Part shown: one piece after another, positions 33,375-56,372 of the stretch
Layout of the letters: each line of letters opens with the position of its first letter
Numbering within the stretch: position 1 is the first letter of the stretch
Source: Bacteroidales bacterium
Lineage (GTDB): Bacteria; Bacteroidota; Bacteroidia; Bacteroidales; VadinHA17
Length of the DNA stretch: 64,000 nucleotides
NCBI GenBank assembly: GCA_017999895.1
Contig: JAGNKY010000003.1
Location: 62,001-126,000 of the forward strand
Direction: 5' to 3'
The notes under the pieces: generated by a model
What the model was told of the DNA's origin: nothing
The model's input: the letters and a program-made list of their open reading frames with translations, nothing else
The model's database searches: none
Made by a program: the position numbers and the translations under genes

Positions 33375-33616
33375 AGCGGACTTACTGTTTTTCGCATTGG
33401 TGCATCACGACAAATCAAACAATTTTGCTAATACATGGTCGTTCCTTAAAAACATATTAAATTGTTGATTATTAACTATTAATGTTGGTATGTTATTTTT
33501 ATAATTTGCAAGGCTTTCGGTACATTTGAGTAAAAGCTTGTACGCCGGTAGGCGGAGAATATTCTAATCACAATCTTCAAGGATAATAGAATATAGTGTT
33601 ACTTTCTTTGTCTTGA

Positions 33617-33954
33617 AACAAAGAGAAATCCAGAATATGTGACAGGGTCGAACACTTATTTGGATTTGTAGAAAACAGTATGAATGGTTCGTTCATACGT
33701 ACAATTGGAATTTCAAGGGCTAAAGCAAAAATAGGGACGATGAACCTGACGTATAATATTTGCCGCAGTACTCAATTAAGAATAGTTGTTGCCATGGGAC
33801 AGGTATGCCCTGACGTTAAAAAATAATTTTGTAAGTATCTGATAGTTAATTATATAAAAAATAGGGGTGGGGGAAAAAATTTGGTTTTTTCAAAATCAAA
33901 TAGTAAATTTGTTTTAAACAACAGCACCAAAAAAAGCAGTTTTTCGAGGTGCCC
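33617..33954 (+). mobile_element. IS5-like transposase C-terminus and right end, copy 1
   Basis: From 33617 to the stop at 33826 the frame reads like an IS5-type DDE transposase tail: RVEHLFGFVENSMNGSFIRTIG, with the last catalytic Glu in RVEH, then MNLTYNICR. No 5' part of the gene is present. The noncoding right end continues to CGAGGTGCCC at 33954. Copies 2 and 3 end at the same sequence. A strong outward promoter lies inside (33880-33911). Confidence 0.75.
33880..33911 (+). promoter_or_regulatory. Outward-facing promoter in the IS5-like end
   Basis: TTTG at 33880-33883, a 20-bp spacer and TAAATTTG at 33904-33911 match the Bacteroidota consensus and point out of the element toward 34.1 kb. 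Copies 2 and 3 keep the TTTG and have TAAATTTA and TATATTTA at the same place, so the promoter is weakened there. Confidence 0.55.
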
Positions 33955-34105
33955 ATATGATAAAACGGGAGTTGTTAAATATAAAACTGAGTTCAAGGGA
34001 TTCCCATTAAGGGTAAATATAGATAATTTGCCTGAGGGACTGTACTTTATTAACATTCTTTACAATGGAAAGACATATACAATGCGTGTTGTAATTAAAC
34101 ATTAA
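33955..34105 (+). pseudogene. Orphan type IX secretion C-terminal sorting domain
   Basis: Behind the IS end, the frame reads YDKTGVVKYKTEFKGFPLR, then VNIDNLPEGLYFINILYNG and KTYTMRVVIKH with a stop. This is the usual last ~60 residues of a Por-type A sorting domain (GxP/LPxGxY ... GxxxxxRxVIxH). The cargo protein in front is gone, replaced by the IS5-like remnant. The open frame entering from the IS is not a plausible secreted protein. Confidence 0.72.
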
Positions 34106-34116
34106 AAGGGTTGCAT

Positions 34117-34806
34117 ATGAAAAAATCAGTTATAATTCCGGTTATACCCCTGGTTGTTTCAGTAATCCTGTTTTTTGCAGGATGTGAAAAAGAGAATGGT
34201 TTACCTGTTGACGGTGACGGTAATCATTATGACACAGTGGTTATTGGAACTCAGGTATGGCTTAAAGAAAATTTGAAGACGACAAAGTATAACAACGGGG
34301 TATCCATACCCCTTGTTACTGACGATGAAAAATGGGCATCAATGACGTCGGCCGCATATTGCTGGTATGACAATAGTCCTGAAAAATACAAAGAGAATTA
34401 TGGTGCTTTATATAACTGGTATGTAGTTAATACCGGATTGTTATGTCCTGTCGGATGGCATGTGCCTACAAAGGAAGAGGGGGAAACATTGATTGATTAT
34501 CTGGGAGGGCCAAATGGTGCGGGTGCTAAATTAAAAGACACAAAATTCTGGACCTGTCCTCCAGGGTATAGGATGGATTGTAGTGGTACCAATGAATCAG
34601 GTTTTTCAGCCCGTCCGGGTGGTGCTAGAGATTCTGATGATGGAACTTCTAATGGCATTGGATCCTTTGGTTATTGGTGGTCTTCTTCTGAATATTGGAC
34701 AGGAGAAAATGCCTGGATAATAAATATTCACTATGATGCTTTTTTAACTATTAAACCAGCATTCAAGAAATCTGGTTTTTCTATACGGTGCATTAAAAAT
34801 AATTGA
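34117..34806 (+). CDS. FISUMP-domain lipoprotein
   Basis: 229 residues from the ATG at 34117, with a signal peptide and lipobox FFAGC. The mature part is the Fibrobacter major paralogous (FISUMP) domain: YDTVVIGTQVWLKENLKTTKYNNG, AYCWYDNSPEKYKENYGALYNWY, CPVGWHVPTKEE, ESGFSARPGGAR and YWWSSSEYW, ending in SIRCIKN. These surface proteins are abundant in fibre-degrading bacteria, with unknown ligands. It is downstream of the first IS5-like end and its promoter. Confidence 0.9.
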   Translation: MKKSVIIPVIPLVVSVILFFAGCEKENGLPVDGDGNHYDTVVIGTQVWLKENLKTTKYNNGVSIPLVTDDEKWASMTSAAYCWYDNSPEKYKENYGALYNWYVVNTGLLCPVGWHVPTKEEGETLIDYLGGPNGAGAKLKDTKFWTCPPGYRMDCSGTNESGFSARPGGARDSDDGTSNGIGSFGYWWSSSEYWTGENAWIINIHYDAFLTIKPAFKKSGFSIRCIKNN

Positions 34807-38417: not shown

Positions 38418-38666
38418 ATAAAAAAATTATTAATTGTTTTGTTAATTGGTTTCGCTTCATTTCCTTTGGTTATAAAAGCTCAAAATTCTTCTCAGGAAAG
38501 TGTTCCTTTACTGGTCGAAGAAGTTACCAGGGATTTAAAGGAAAATATTCTTCCTTTTTGGGAAAAGAATGCACCTGATCCCAGAGGAGGCTTTTATGGA
38601 ACGATTCTTAATGATGGTACTCCCCAACCGGACTATTTGATGATCATTTTTTACTGTAAACTCTAA
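38418..38666 (+). pseudogene. Truncated AGE-type (cellobiose/mannobiose 2-epimerase-like) gene
   Basis: The frame reads KKLLIVLLIGFASFPLVIKAQ (signal peptide), then VTRDLKENILPFWEKNAPDPRGGFYGTI, the start of N-acylglucosamine 2-epimerase-type barrels, and breaks off at QPDYLMIIFYCKL. The family needs ~390 residues. The natural start position has ATA rather than ATG. It is 6 bp after the GH9 gene, where an epimerase would act on released disaccharide. Both ends look damaged, so it is not expected to work. Confidence 0.7.
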
Positions 38667-38790
38667 TTAAACCTGGTTATCCGCTTCAAAAAGTCCACCT
38701 CGCATGTAACCGGTTGATGTTGTTCAAAGCCCTTATAATTCAAAGTTTGTATAACCATAACAACCCCTTAACCGAAGAACAGAAAGCGTG
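38667..38790. other. Junction sequence before IS5-like copy 2
   Basis: No gene or clear signal. It joins the epimerase fragment to the second IS5-like remnant; short frames here have no recognisable content. Confidence 0.4.
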
Positions 38791-39122
38791 AAATAAAGAG
38801 AAATCAAGAATATGTGCAAGGGTCGAGCACTTGTTGGGATTTGTAGAAAACAGCATGAACGGTTCGTTTATACGCACTATTGGAATTTCAAGGGCTAAAG
38901 CAAAAATCGGAATGATGAACCTGACGTAAAATATTTGTCGCTGTACTCAATTAAGAATAGTAATTTCCAGGGGATAGTTATGCCTGAAAGTGAAAAAATA
39001 ATTTTGTAAATATCTAATAGTTAATTAGATAAAATAGAGGGAGTAAAATTTGGTTTTTAGAAAATCAAATAGTAAATTTATCTTAAACAACAGCACCAAA
39101 AAAGTAGTTTTTCGAGGTGCCC
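38791..39122 (+). mobile_element. IS5-like transposase tail and right end, copy 2
   Basis: It repeats copy 1 over ~330 bp with scattered differences. The transposase frame RVEHLLGFVENSMNGSFIRTIG is kept but stops early after GMMNLT. The right end closes with the same CGAGGTGCCC. A lipoprotein gene begins 42 bp farther on. Confidence 0.75.
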
Positions 39123-39164
39123 TTACGATTGAATAACTAATTCAAAAAATTAAAAATAAAAGCC

Positions 39165-39536
39165 ATGAAAACACTTATTATTAATACTGGATTTTTTATT
39201 TTGCTTCTCCTGATGATGGGAGCAGGATGTAAAAAAGAGAATAGTCAAAATAACCCTTGTGCTGAACCTTATAAGGTAATTGAATCTTTATCTTCACATT
39301 CAGGTTTAATAGGTTTTGATGAGAAAATAGGCAAGTATTTTATTCAAATTCATGTTGAAGGCACAATTGATGAAATTATTACTGCCTATCCCTGCGAATT
39401 AGCTGAAGAATTCAAAAAAATCAATCTTAAAGTAATAGTGTCTGGTGACCTCTTTGAAGGAAAAGATTTACCTGCACCAGTTTTGGGAGGACAAAAAATA
39501 TTTTATATAAATATTAAAAATATCGACATTCTCTAA
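39165..39536 (+). CDS. Small lipoprotein behind IS5-like copy 2
   Basis: 123 residues. The signal peptide MKTLIINTGFFILLLLMMGAGC ends in a lipobox; the mature part has HVEGTIDEIITAYPCELAEEFKKI followed by LKVIVSGDLFEG, a small beta-fold seen in Bacteroidota lipoproteins of unknown function. The 42-nt leader and the opening of the signal peptide match those of the next lipoprotein gene, while the mature parts do not align. Confidence 0.72.
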   Translation: MKTLIINTGFFILLLLMMGAGCKKENSQNNPCAEPYKVIESLSSHSGLIGFDEKIGKYFIQIHVEGTIDEIITAYPCELAEEFKKINLKVIVSGDLFEGKDLPAPVLGGQKIFYINIKNIDIL

Positions 39537-39894
39537 GTCAGAGAGAAAAATGAAAAAAGTTAAATATTTTCAGGGCAAATATTCGGATTCCGACCGTAAG
39601 CGTCGTGAGTTTGGGCCGCCGGCCGAATGAGATATATAAATATAGCATAAAGCAAACAAAAAATACGCAGTTCTTTTGACGGATTATTGAAAGGTTTTTT
39701 CGATTTCTCCTATAAATATGATTTCAGCGAAATTATATTACTGTAAATCTGAAAGGTATGCACTTGAATTTACACTAAAAACTACAATCTGGAACCGGAC
39801 ATTAAATTACCTGTTGCCAGAAGAAGAAAAACAGAAATTTTAAAGGACTTATGTGTTTTCAACATATTATTTAACTCCTAAACTTGAGTAACTA
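39537..39894. other. Stretch without a convincing gene
   Basis: A 26-codon frame begins at about 39550 (MKKVKYFQGKYSDSDRKRRE). The piece GACCGTAAGC recurs near 41543, beyond the IS3 element, so this may be debris of a duplicated unit. Nothing else is recognised. Confidence 0.35.
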
Positions 39895-39985
39895 AAAAAT
39901 ATGAATGTAAAATTTTGTTTTTCGAAAATTAAACAGTATATTTAGTTAAAATAGAAGCACCAAAAAATAGTTTTTCGAGGTGCCC
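39895..39985 (+). mobile_element. IS5-like right end only, copy 3
   Basis: Only the last ~90 bp of the element remain, diverged (TTTTGTTTTTCGAAAATTAA ... GCACC, a run of A, TAGTTTTTCGAGGTGCCC), with the same endpoint as copies 1 and 2. The next 42 bp and the following start codon are identical to the region after copy 2. Confidence 0.7.
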
Positions 39986-40027
39986 TTACGATTGAATAAC
40001 TAATTCAAAAAATTAAAAATAAAAGCC

Positions 40028-40381
40028 ATGAAAATGCCAATCATTAAAACTGGATTTTTCATTTTGATTATATTAATAATGGGAACTGGATGTGAGGATG
40101 ATAAACGTGATCCTCTATGTTATAAAGGAAAGGTTATAAGCCTCAATTATGGAGACGGATGCTATAATATTATAGAGATTACAGAGACTCCTACTAATTA
40201 TGATGAGGAGTTATCAACAGGTACAACATTAACTTTCAATCCGGAATCATATAGGGGAAAAATAAATATTGGAGATGTTGTATACTTTAAGATTATTCAG
40301 TATGAAGATTGGGTAGGACCAGCCTATGCTAATTGTTTATGGCCAAAATATACAGCCCGGTTAGAGTTTTGTAAAAAATAA
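40028..40381 (+). CDS. Small lipoprotein behind IS5-like copy 3
   Basis: 117 residues. Signal peptide MKMPIIKTGFFILIILIMGTGC with lipobox, close to that of the 39165 gene (TGFFIL, MG.GC). The mature part is different: CYKGKVISLNYGDGCYNIIEIT, then INIGDVVYFKIIQYEDW and four cysteines, an OB-like small domain of unknown function. Same leader, different cargo. Confidence 0.72.
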   Translation: MKMPIIKTGFFILIILIMGTGCEDDKRDPLCYKGKVISLNYGDGCYNIIEITETPTNYDEELSTGTTLTFNPESYRGKINIGDVVYFKIIQYEDWVGPAYANCLWPKYTARLEFCKK

Positions 40382-40392
40382 ATTCTTAGTAT

Positions 40393-40489
40393 ATGAAAAG
40401 ATTTTTGACTACAATTCTTATCGTTTGTATCTTTTCTTTAGCATTTCCCCAATCCTTTTATAAATATAAAGGTGTCTTAGCCCCCAAAT
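40393..40489 (+). pseudogene. Secreted-protein start interrupted by the IS3 element
   Basis: MKRFLTTILIVCIFSLAFPQ and then SFYKYKG is a good signal peptide ending in FPQ. The frame runs into the IS3 left end and stops a few codons inside. No continuation is visible beyond the right end at 41521. Confidence 0.6.
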
Positions 40490-41521
40490 AGCTGGACATA
40501 ATTTGAAAAACAAATTAGGTTTAATTAAATTTGGGAATCATGACACTACAAAGAAGAAAATTTACACCTGAGGATCGCTTGTCAATACTTCAGGAAGGAG
40601 AACGTGAAGGTCATACAAAGACTTTGCGAAAGTATCAGATAGCACCATCCCTGTGCCCGATGGAAGAAGAAGTATCTACAGGAAGGGATTAATGGTCTGA
40701 AAGACAAAAATAAACGGATTAATCCAGATATCCGTGCACTTGAACTGGAAAATGAACTCTTGCTTGGTAAGGTTATCAGGACTCACGGCAAACGTGAATG
40801 GGTAAAGCTAAGGAAGATTACTGCTAACAGGCCCATGGAATATATCTGCCGGGACATAAAGTACATCTGGGTAAAAGGCGAACGCAGAAATTATTACATG
40901 CTTTCCCTGATGGATATATACTCCCGCCGAATACTTTATCATAAGTTCCAGGGAAGCATTAGAAAAATCGACCTGATAAAACTTATTGCCCGGATAGACC
41001 TTCTTCATGGGCTAAAAGGTGTTACTGTCAGAAACGATAACGGATCACAGTTTATCGCCAATAAAGTCAGACATTATCTTCGTACTCTTAATGCCAAACA
41101 GGAGTTCACTCATATCGTAACTCCCGTGAAAAACTCGTACATTGAAGCCTTCAATAGCATCCTCGAAAGAGAAGTGATCCAAAGGTTTGAATTCGAAAGC
41201 TATTACGAGGCAAAATTAACACTTATGCTTATGTAAATTTCTACAATAATAAGCGTCAGCATGGAAGCCTGAAAAGAAAAACTCCGATGAGGGTGTGGAA
41301 TGAATATTATCAGTCATTGTCAACCGATAAGCCCCAGACAGCGGTAGTGTCGGAGGAGTTGTCAAGAGTGTCGGGTTGTGCGGACACTGGTCTTGCTCTT
41401 GACAAATCCGAAGATACGGCTAACTTTGCTAATAGGTTGATGAATGAAAATAACAAAAACAGTAAACAAGAAGTTCTATATTCTTTTGAAAAACCTGTCC
41501 AAGTTATAGGGGGTTAGACCA
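40473..41521 (+). mobile_element. Internally deleted IS3-family element
   Basis: The ends TGTCTTAGCCCCC and, in reverse complement, TGGTCTAACCCCC are imperfect inverted repeats; TGGACA lies inside each. OrfA begins MTLQRRKFTPEDRLSILQEG at 40540, shifts frame near 40655, and continues as KYLQEGINGLKDKNKRI ... LELENELLLGKVI. It is then fused directly to the OrfB integrase core (MEYICRDIKYIWVKGERRNYY, VRNDNGSQFIANKVR, IEAFNSILEREV). A second frameshift near 41230 precedes NNKRQHGSLKRKTPMRVWNEY. DDE residues remain, but the protein cannot be made whole. Confidence 0.85.
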
Positions 41522-48687: not shown

Positions 48688-49580
48688 CATGCCATTGAAA
48701 ATATATGAATCTCTTATGTTTTTGGAATTCAATCATCCAATCATCCAATTATCACATAATCACATCATCAATTATCCATTATCCATCTCCTTTTCTCTCA
48801 TATTAAACAACGCGGTTTGTGTCAGAATTTTTGAACAGGCCGTGCCTACGGCACTCAATATGATATGGGAATAACATCTCTACTACAAACAGTGCGCTCC
48901 TACGGAGCTCAGGATGTACAACATTTTATAACTGTGTTCCTTTATAACTACGTGACAAATTACTGCTTTAATATTATTCATGATATACAGCGTTATAGCT
49001 TCTGTAGATATAAAGCTGCGTAGCAGCGTTCTGTTTGTAGCTAAGAATGCAGATTTAAATTTGAGAGCCGCGTAGCGGCGGCCTGTAAATTTGCGAAACT
49101 AATGGTTAAATGTTTTTTAATTTTACCACGGATGGCACGGGTTGGCACCGGGAAAATCTGTGTTAACCCGTGCTTCCCGTGGTGAATTGGATTTTTCCGG
49201 ATAGAACACTGATGACCTTTAGATTAGCATTTTGAAAATATATAAATCTCTTATGTTTTTGAATCCAATCATTCAATCACAATCATCAATCCTTTTTCCT
49301 CCTCTTAAACTACTCGGTTTGTATAAAAATTTTTAAACATGCCGTGCCTACGGCAAAAAATGCACATTTTAAATTTGAGAGCCGCGTAGCGGCGGCCTGT
49401 AAATTTGCGAAACTAATGGTTAAATGTTTTTTAATTTTACCACGGATGGCACGGGTTGGCACGGGGAAAATCTGTGTTAACCCTTGCTTCCCGTGGTGAA
49501 TTGGATTTTTCCGGATAGAACTCCGATGACCTTTAGATTAGCATTTTGAAAATATATGAATCTCTTATGTTTTTGGAATG
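48688..49580. repeat. Large intergenic direct-repeat array
   Basis: No gene between 48526 and 49676. A unit of about 220 bp at 49046-49264 recurs at 49359-49580 with few differences; it includes GCCGCGTAGCGGCGGCCTG and the hairpin ACCACGGATGGCACGGG ... CCCGTGGTGAA. Between and before them is another repeated segment (TGAATCTCTTATGTTTTTGG ... GCCGTGCCTACGGCA) at about 48690-48855 and 49230-49355. The order is A, variable, B, A, B, partial A. Similar hairpins occur at 55.85-56.3 kb. Confidence 0.88.
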
Positions 49581-55813: not shown

Positions 55814-55849
55814 AGGATTAAATTTTGATATAAATATCAAATCTATAAA

Positions 55850-56310
55850 AAAATCACCACGGAAAGCACGGATAACCACGGATAATTTAACCATTAATAT
55901 CAGTGCAAACCCGTGTAACCCGTGGTTAAAATCAAACAATAATATTCTCCACAACTCTTTTATCCAGAAAAATACTCTTAACAATAAAGAGATTTATAGA
56001 GAAAATATAAAAAAGTCACCACGGAAAGCACGGACAAACACGGATAATTTAACCATTAATATCCGTGCAAACCCGTGTAACCCGTGGTTAAAATCAAACA
56101 ATAATATTCTCCACAACTCTTTTATCCAGAAAAATACTCTTAACAATAAAGAGATTTATAGAGAAAATATAAAAAATCACCACGGAAAGCACGGACAAAC
56201 ACGGATTATTTAACCATTAATATCCGTGCAAACCCGTGTAACCCGTGGTGAAAATTAAACAATAATATTCTCCACAACTCTTTTATCCAGAAAAATACTC
56301 TTCAAAAAAG
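55850..56310. repeat. Tandem 161-162 bp repeat, nearly three copies
   Basis: The start TCACCACGGAAAGCACGG occurs at 55854, 56016 and 56177. Each unit holds an imperfect palindrome (ACCACGGA ... CCCGTGTAACCCGTGG) and an AT-rich part with CTCCACAACTCTTTTATCC. Copies are over 95% alike by eye. Because the unit is close to three times 54, it creates a long spurious open frame on the plus strand. The CCACGG hairpin is related to those at 49.1-49.5 kb. Confidence 0.93.
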
Positions 56311-56372
56311 AGATTTTATTATAGAAATATTTAAGATAATATTAACTACAGTTATAAGTGTAATAGAGCCGG

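Follow-up and report, generated by a model that had tools for sequence, protein, structure and literature searches.

The window analysed here, a stretch of 64,000 nt from a 2.64-Mb Bacteroidota assembly, was compared with some 60 genomes from its genus. It carries two adjacent, co-oriented genes for small lipoproteins, A and B, each preceded by the right end of an IS5-family element. The region around these genes is decaying. It holds a GH9 gene, IS remnants, and a truncated gene (38439-38666), and beyond 40.48 kb there is an IS3-type insertion. The features considered below, in window positions, are the following.

33614..33954, plus strand: IS copy 1, a 3' remnant with the transposase C-terminus and the right end (84% to IS positions 971-1308)
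38630..39122, plus strand: IS copy 2, an internally deleted remnant (IS positions 128-336, then 938-1308), right end at 39122
39045..39080, plus strand: promoter-like pair facing outward from the copy 2 right end, TTTG - 20 nt - TAAATTTA, from sequence
39093..39120, plus strand: hairpin formed by GCACC...GGTGC within the IS end; a transcript would have it near its 5' end (z -1.6, weak)
39105..39171, plus strand: first copy of the 67-nt block, leader at 39123-39164, from sequence comparison
39165..39536, plus strand: gene A, a lipoprotein with a mature part related to Potempin A, from profile and single-sequence comparison
39862..39985, plus strand: IS copy 3, reduced to the terminal ~124 nt of the IS and highly diverged (73% identity)
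39909..39944, plus strand: promoter-like pair facing outward from the copy 3 right end, TTTG - 19 nt - TATATTTA, from sequence
39968..40034, plus strand: second copy of the 67-nt block, leader at 39986-40027, from sequence comparison
40028..40381, plus strand: gene B, a lipoprotein with one known relative, in Alkaliflexus, from sequence comparison
40393..40473, plus strand: first 27 codons of the S8 protease gene found after B in Alkaliflexus (59% identity)
40760-41236: IS3/rve transposase, from a domain match

Elsewhere in the window, a 162-nt unit is repeated in tandem three times (55827-56311), and a separate pair of 208-nt direct repeats is 98% identical (48788-49575).

The sequence CGAGGTGCCC is present exactly three times in the window (33945, 39113, and 39976), against an expectation of 0.01. 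Intact relatives of the element in the genus are 1308 bp long and encode an IS5-type DDE transposase (NCBIfam NF033581; the intact L089 copy matches with E 9.9e-84), the C-terminus of which is retained in window copies 1 and 2. The element ends in the terminal inverted repeats GGGCATCTC...GAGGTGCCC and is flanked by 4-bp duplications, TTAA or TATA, as judged on L090 and L089, the window copies being without left ends. The IS5-like identity given in the original prediction is confirmed by this intact element and applies to copies 2 and 3 as well, with the correction that the former is internally deleted and the latter is reduced to its terminal part. In the tree of right ends, copy 2 falls together with the other recent copies from this genome, copy 1 and C12, and copy 3 forms a long, unplaced branch. 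The right ends of copies 3 and 2 have accumulated 19 and 4 private changes, respectively, and the adjoining block is nonetheless identical; when both copies were tested for descent from one insertion, three derived sites were common to them and three were not. Copy 1 runs in frame into part of a T9SS type A sorting domain (33881-34105; TIGR04183, E 1.4e-5), which seems to have been the tail of a secreted protein now lost, and is followed by the gene of a lipoprotein with a Fib_succ_major domain (34117-34806), whose signal is unlike those of A and B.

Comparison of the regions upstream of A and B revealed 67 identical nucleotides (39105-39171 and 39968-40034), comprising the terminal 18 nt of the IS, a 42-nt leader that starts directly at the IS end in both cases, and ATGAAAA. 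The common IS end, leader, and start had been predicted, and the exact block proved longer than claimed. On its 5' side, the IS ends of copies 2 and 3 are identical at 43 of 54 nt, and on its 3' side the DNA of the signal peptides is identical at 44 of 59 nt (75%), so that the block is bordered by sequence of 75-80% identity. Mapping of the breakpoints places the end of the similarity at the lipobox Cys codon: the first ten mature codons agree at 13 of 30 nt, and beyond them identity is at the background level of about 30%. If the mismatches were scattered randomly across the 186 aligned nucleotides, an identical run of at least 67 nt would have a P of about 4.5e-5. Anchored on the Cys codon, the signal-peptide DNA of A and B is identical at 44 of 57 positions, versus a mean of 21 for other pairs of lipoprotein-like signals, in agreement with the predicted similarity of the signal peptides.

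The leader together with the signal occurs in two places in the assembly, upstream of and within A and B. The same search of related genomes, as the original prediction had proposed, found this combination in none of the other genus genomes searched, although the IS end is widespread there; nor is the leader kept in the Alkaliflexus relative of B. The possibility that the leader belongs to one ordinary gene family of the genus and accompanies each of its paralogs was rejected, the leader-only matches being short, confined to the ribosome-binding region, and located before unrelated genes. An Rfam search yielded no RNA family.

The mature part of A is related to Potempin A, a metalloprotease inhibitor of Tannerella forsythia. 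The profile of A (A1) matches PDB entry 8b2m with E 3.3e-20, the profile matches to 8b2m, 8b2n, and 8b2q ranging from 3e-20 to 5e-17, and the mature part as a single sequence matches Potempin A over residues 1-99 (E 1.9e-6). The lipobox of A (MGAGC, residues 18-22) is resembled by that of Potempin A (G-x-GCKK). One relative of A, in L086, directly precedes a Peptidase_M10 (matrixin) gene; no recognisable protease was found next to the relatives in L041 and L042. In the window, no matrixin-type metalloprotease gene follows A, and since only decayed sequence lies downstream, we classify A as related to Potempin A but lacking its partner, and not as a demonstrated potempin. The single-sequence structure model of A is poor (pLDDT 40) and was set aside. 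Neither A nor B has a match in Pfam or NCBIfam; no relative of either was found on plasmids, and none of A on viral contigs. A potempin A-like protein has been proposed as the immunity protein to an MMP-like T6SS effector (PMC13340143); A could have such a role instead.

Among about 85,000 species genomes, a search sensitive to close relatives only detected a single relative of B, in Alkaliflexus, and the sampled phylum and order genomes contained none. The mature parts of the two proteins are 62% identical, and the likeness includes the signal peptide and the downstream gene, the DNA identity of 69% running past the gene. In Alkaliflexus, the gene directly after the B relative encodes a secreted S8 protease (subtilase) that has a T9SS tail; in the window, 27 codons of this protease gene are left after B, and the remainder was lost at the IS3-type insertion. 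Upstream of the Alkaliflexus gene (L085:2006-2737) lies a small lipoprotein-like reading frame interrupted by a stop, the second part of which is without a Pfam match. Comparison of B with PDB sequences gave no significant match, to a solved potempin or to any other entry, and because of this B is compared with the potempins here and is not filed as one. The model predicted for B is a small beta barrel, with a pLDDT of 76 overall and of more than 80 within the barrel itself; its fold matches in PDB are weak, none being below E 0.001, and the best of them include OB folds, which suggests an OB-type barrel. A search of a viral library with this model gave nothing useful. No intact protease gene was found beside A or B in the window. 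Given the likeness of A to Potempin A and the S8 protease beside the relative of B, each is probably an inhibitor or immunity lipoprotein that has lost its partner protease.

The mature parts of A and B gave no indication of common origin in three comparisons: BLASTP aligns residues 1-47 only, 609 of 1000 shuffled sequences score as well, and profile comparison by hhalign gives a probability of 0.1%. The predicted lack of relationship is thus upheld, without full-length homology, and on sequence evidence the mature domains are members of different families with independent relatives. The signals behave differently. Signal DNA is identical at 51 of 66 positions between A and B, and at 42 of 66 between B and its Alkaliflexus relative. 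As the signals of A and B are closer to each other than those of B and the Alkaliflexus protein, despite the 62% mature identity of the latter pair, the front and the mature part have different histories. This requires a recombination-type event, as had been predicted, with A (Potempin A) and B (Alkaliflexus) placed in separate families.

We consider it probable that one local event of duplication or gene conversion accounts for the front, from the IS end to the signal peptide, that the unrelated inhibitor-type lipoproteins A and B share. The front would be a cassette of an IS5-family end with an outward promoter motif, the 42-nt leader, and a lipoprotein signal peptide, copied between the two genes by a single local recombination with its junction at the boundary of the signal peptide and the mature part. 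B is the likelier donor, since its Alkaliflexus relative has a related signal on the same mature protein, and A, the relative of Potempin A, would then be a chimera. The direction of copying, which rests on 66 nt and on families represented by a single relative of B and a few remote relatives of A, is a lean and not a result, because the lipobox region of Potempin A itself resembles that of A; part of the signal of A could be its own.

The identity of the 67-nt block may be due to recent gene conversion, but it could also reflect selection on a shared 5' UTR, following an old duplication of the front, with the leader held identical for expression while the IS remnant and the signal drifted. 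The high divergence on either side of the block is in line with this scenario, and the leader, which carries the ribosome-binding region, can form TTGAAT/ATTCAA and GCACC/GGTGC hairpins. However, the folding z-scores are weak (-1.6 and -1.4), the distribution of the leader given above, absent from both the genus genomes searched and the Alkaliflexus relative, does not favour it, and the initial copying event would still be required; we regard this explanation as unlikely. Still less likely is that A and B are full-length paralogs of a fast-evolving family of OB-fold inhibitors, whose mature parts, each co-evolving with another protease, diverged beyond recognition behind a conserved front. Both proteins are small lipoproteins tied by homology to protease neighbours, and the barrel predicted for B, with OB folds among its weak best matches, would suit such a family. 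Yet between B and its relative the mature part is more strongly conserved than the signal, hhalign finds no match between the mature parts, and neither date of duplication fits: one after the split of B and its Alkaliflexus relative cannot yield unrelated mature parts, and an older one cannot yield the closer signals of A and B.

The original prediction saw in this arrangement a possible way of diversifying surface lipoproteins. In the variable surface lipoproteins of Mycoplasma, which form larger switching families, different mature proteins follow a conserved 5' region and signal. A and B have the same organization, but they are one pair, whereas in such a family many copies share promoter and signal. 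A system that swaps lipoprotein cargo behind a fixed IS end, leader, and signal, in the manner of these lipoproteins or of the immunity-gene arrays of Bacteroidales, would account for the constant front, the different cargo, and the adjacent, co-oriented position of A and B; the rAID arrays likewise consist of short co-oriented genes with conserved intergenic motifs (PMC12247911). Against it, the front is found twice in this genome and in none of the other genus genomes searched, the neighbourhood is decaying, and no recombinase was recognised nearby save the decayed IS transposases. No sign of switching or repeated swapping was seen here, so that diversification is not supported, and we judge such a system very improbable.

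The outward promoter assigned to the IS end in the original prediction stands as a match to a Bacteroidota-type motif and remains putative. The TAnnTTTG box is kept in most right ends of the IS in the genus; a sigma-70 scan was at background level, which is the outcome to be expected with Bacteroidota promoters. Across the genus, right ends often survive as 3'-only remnants, located just upstream of many unrelated genes and pointing into them, among others those of a sulfatase, an arabinofuranosidase, and a Gfo/Idh oxidoreductase. A same-direction gene start lies within 100 bp of 32 of 53 right ends versus 6 of 20 left ends (Fisher P 0.034), and within 200 bp of 40 of 53 versus 7 of 20 (P 0.002), counts that are indicative only, as the two sets of ends were collected with different queries, gene starts were assigned with a simple rule on ORFs, and numerous contigs end within the IS (assembly bias). 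The right ends beside unrelated genes appear to have arisen mostly by independent insertions, since their flanks differ in nearly all cases; positions common to two genomes were found for L078/L079, L045/L050, and L060/L062. The placement of the right ends and the conserved box fit the idea that the IS carries a promoter, which has been described in other IS families (PMC9208149). It is doubtful that these right ends are, in this genus, mobile 5' modules that supply new cargo with a promoter, a UTR, and in some cases a signal peptide, with recombination through the IS end placing protease-inhibitor or immunity lipoproteins under a common front.

Two known systems are closest to this locus. In T. 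forsythia, each of six KLIKK proteases is preceded by the gene of a small lipoprotein, and the six lipoproteins are mutually without significant similarity (PMC4404884); these were later named potempins, and their inhibitory activity was reported (PMC7296668). The likeness consists in small, mutually dissimilar lipoproteins directly before secreted proteases, the sequence relationship of A to Potempin A, and the S8 protease that follows B's relative in Alkaliflexus. The differences are that the proteases beside A and B are missing or truncated, and that A and B share the 5' end, whereas the six T. forsythia genes are reported to be without significant similarity. Like the IS elements known as mobile promoters (PMC9208149 and the work it cites), the IS studied here has an end that bears a promoter motif and lies shortly before many unrelated genes; here, unlike in that system, the leader and signal codons of the host gene would have been copied along with the IS end.

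A and B show in a clean form how unrelated lipoproteins can share a front end. As probable inhibitors, they would add to the poorly known lipoproteins of this kind beside secreted proteases of Bacteroidota, B being without a recognised family. Finally, the genus-wide placement of the IS right ends upstream of genes offers a case in which the spread of promoters by an IS can be tested.
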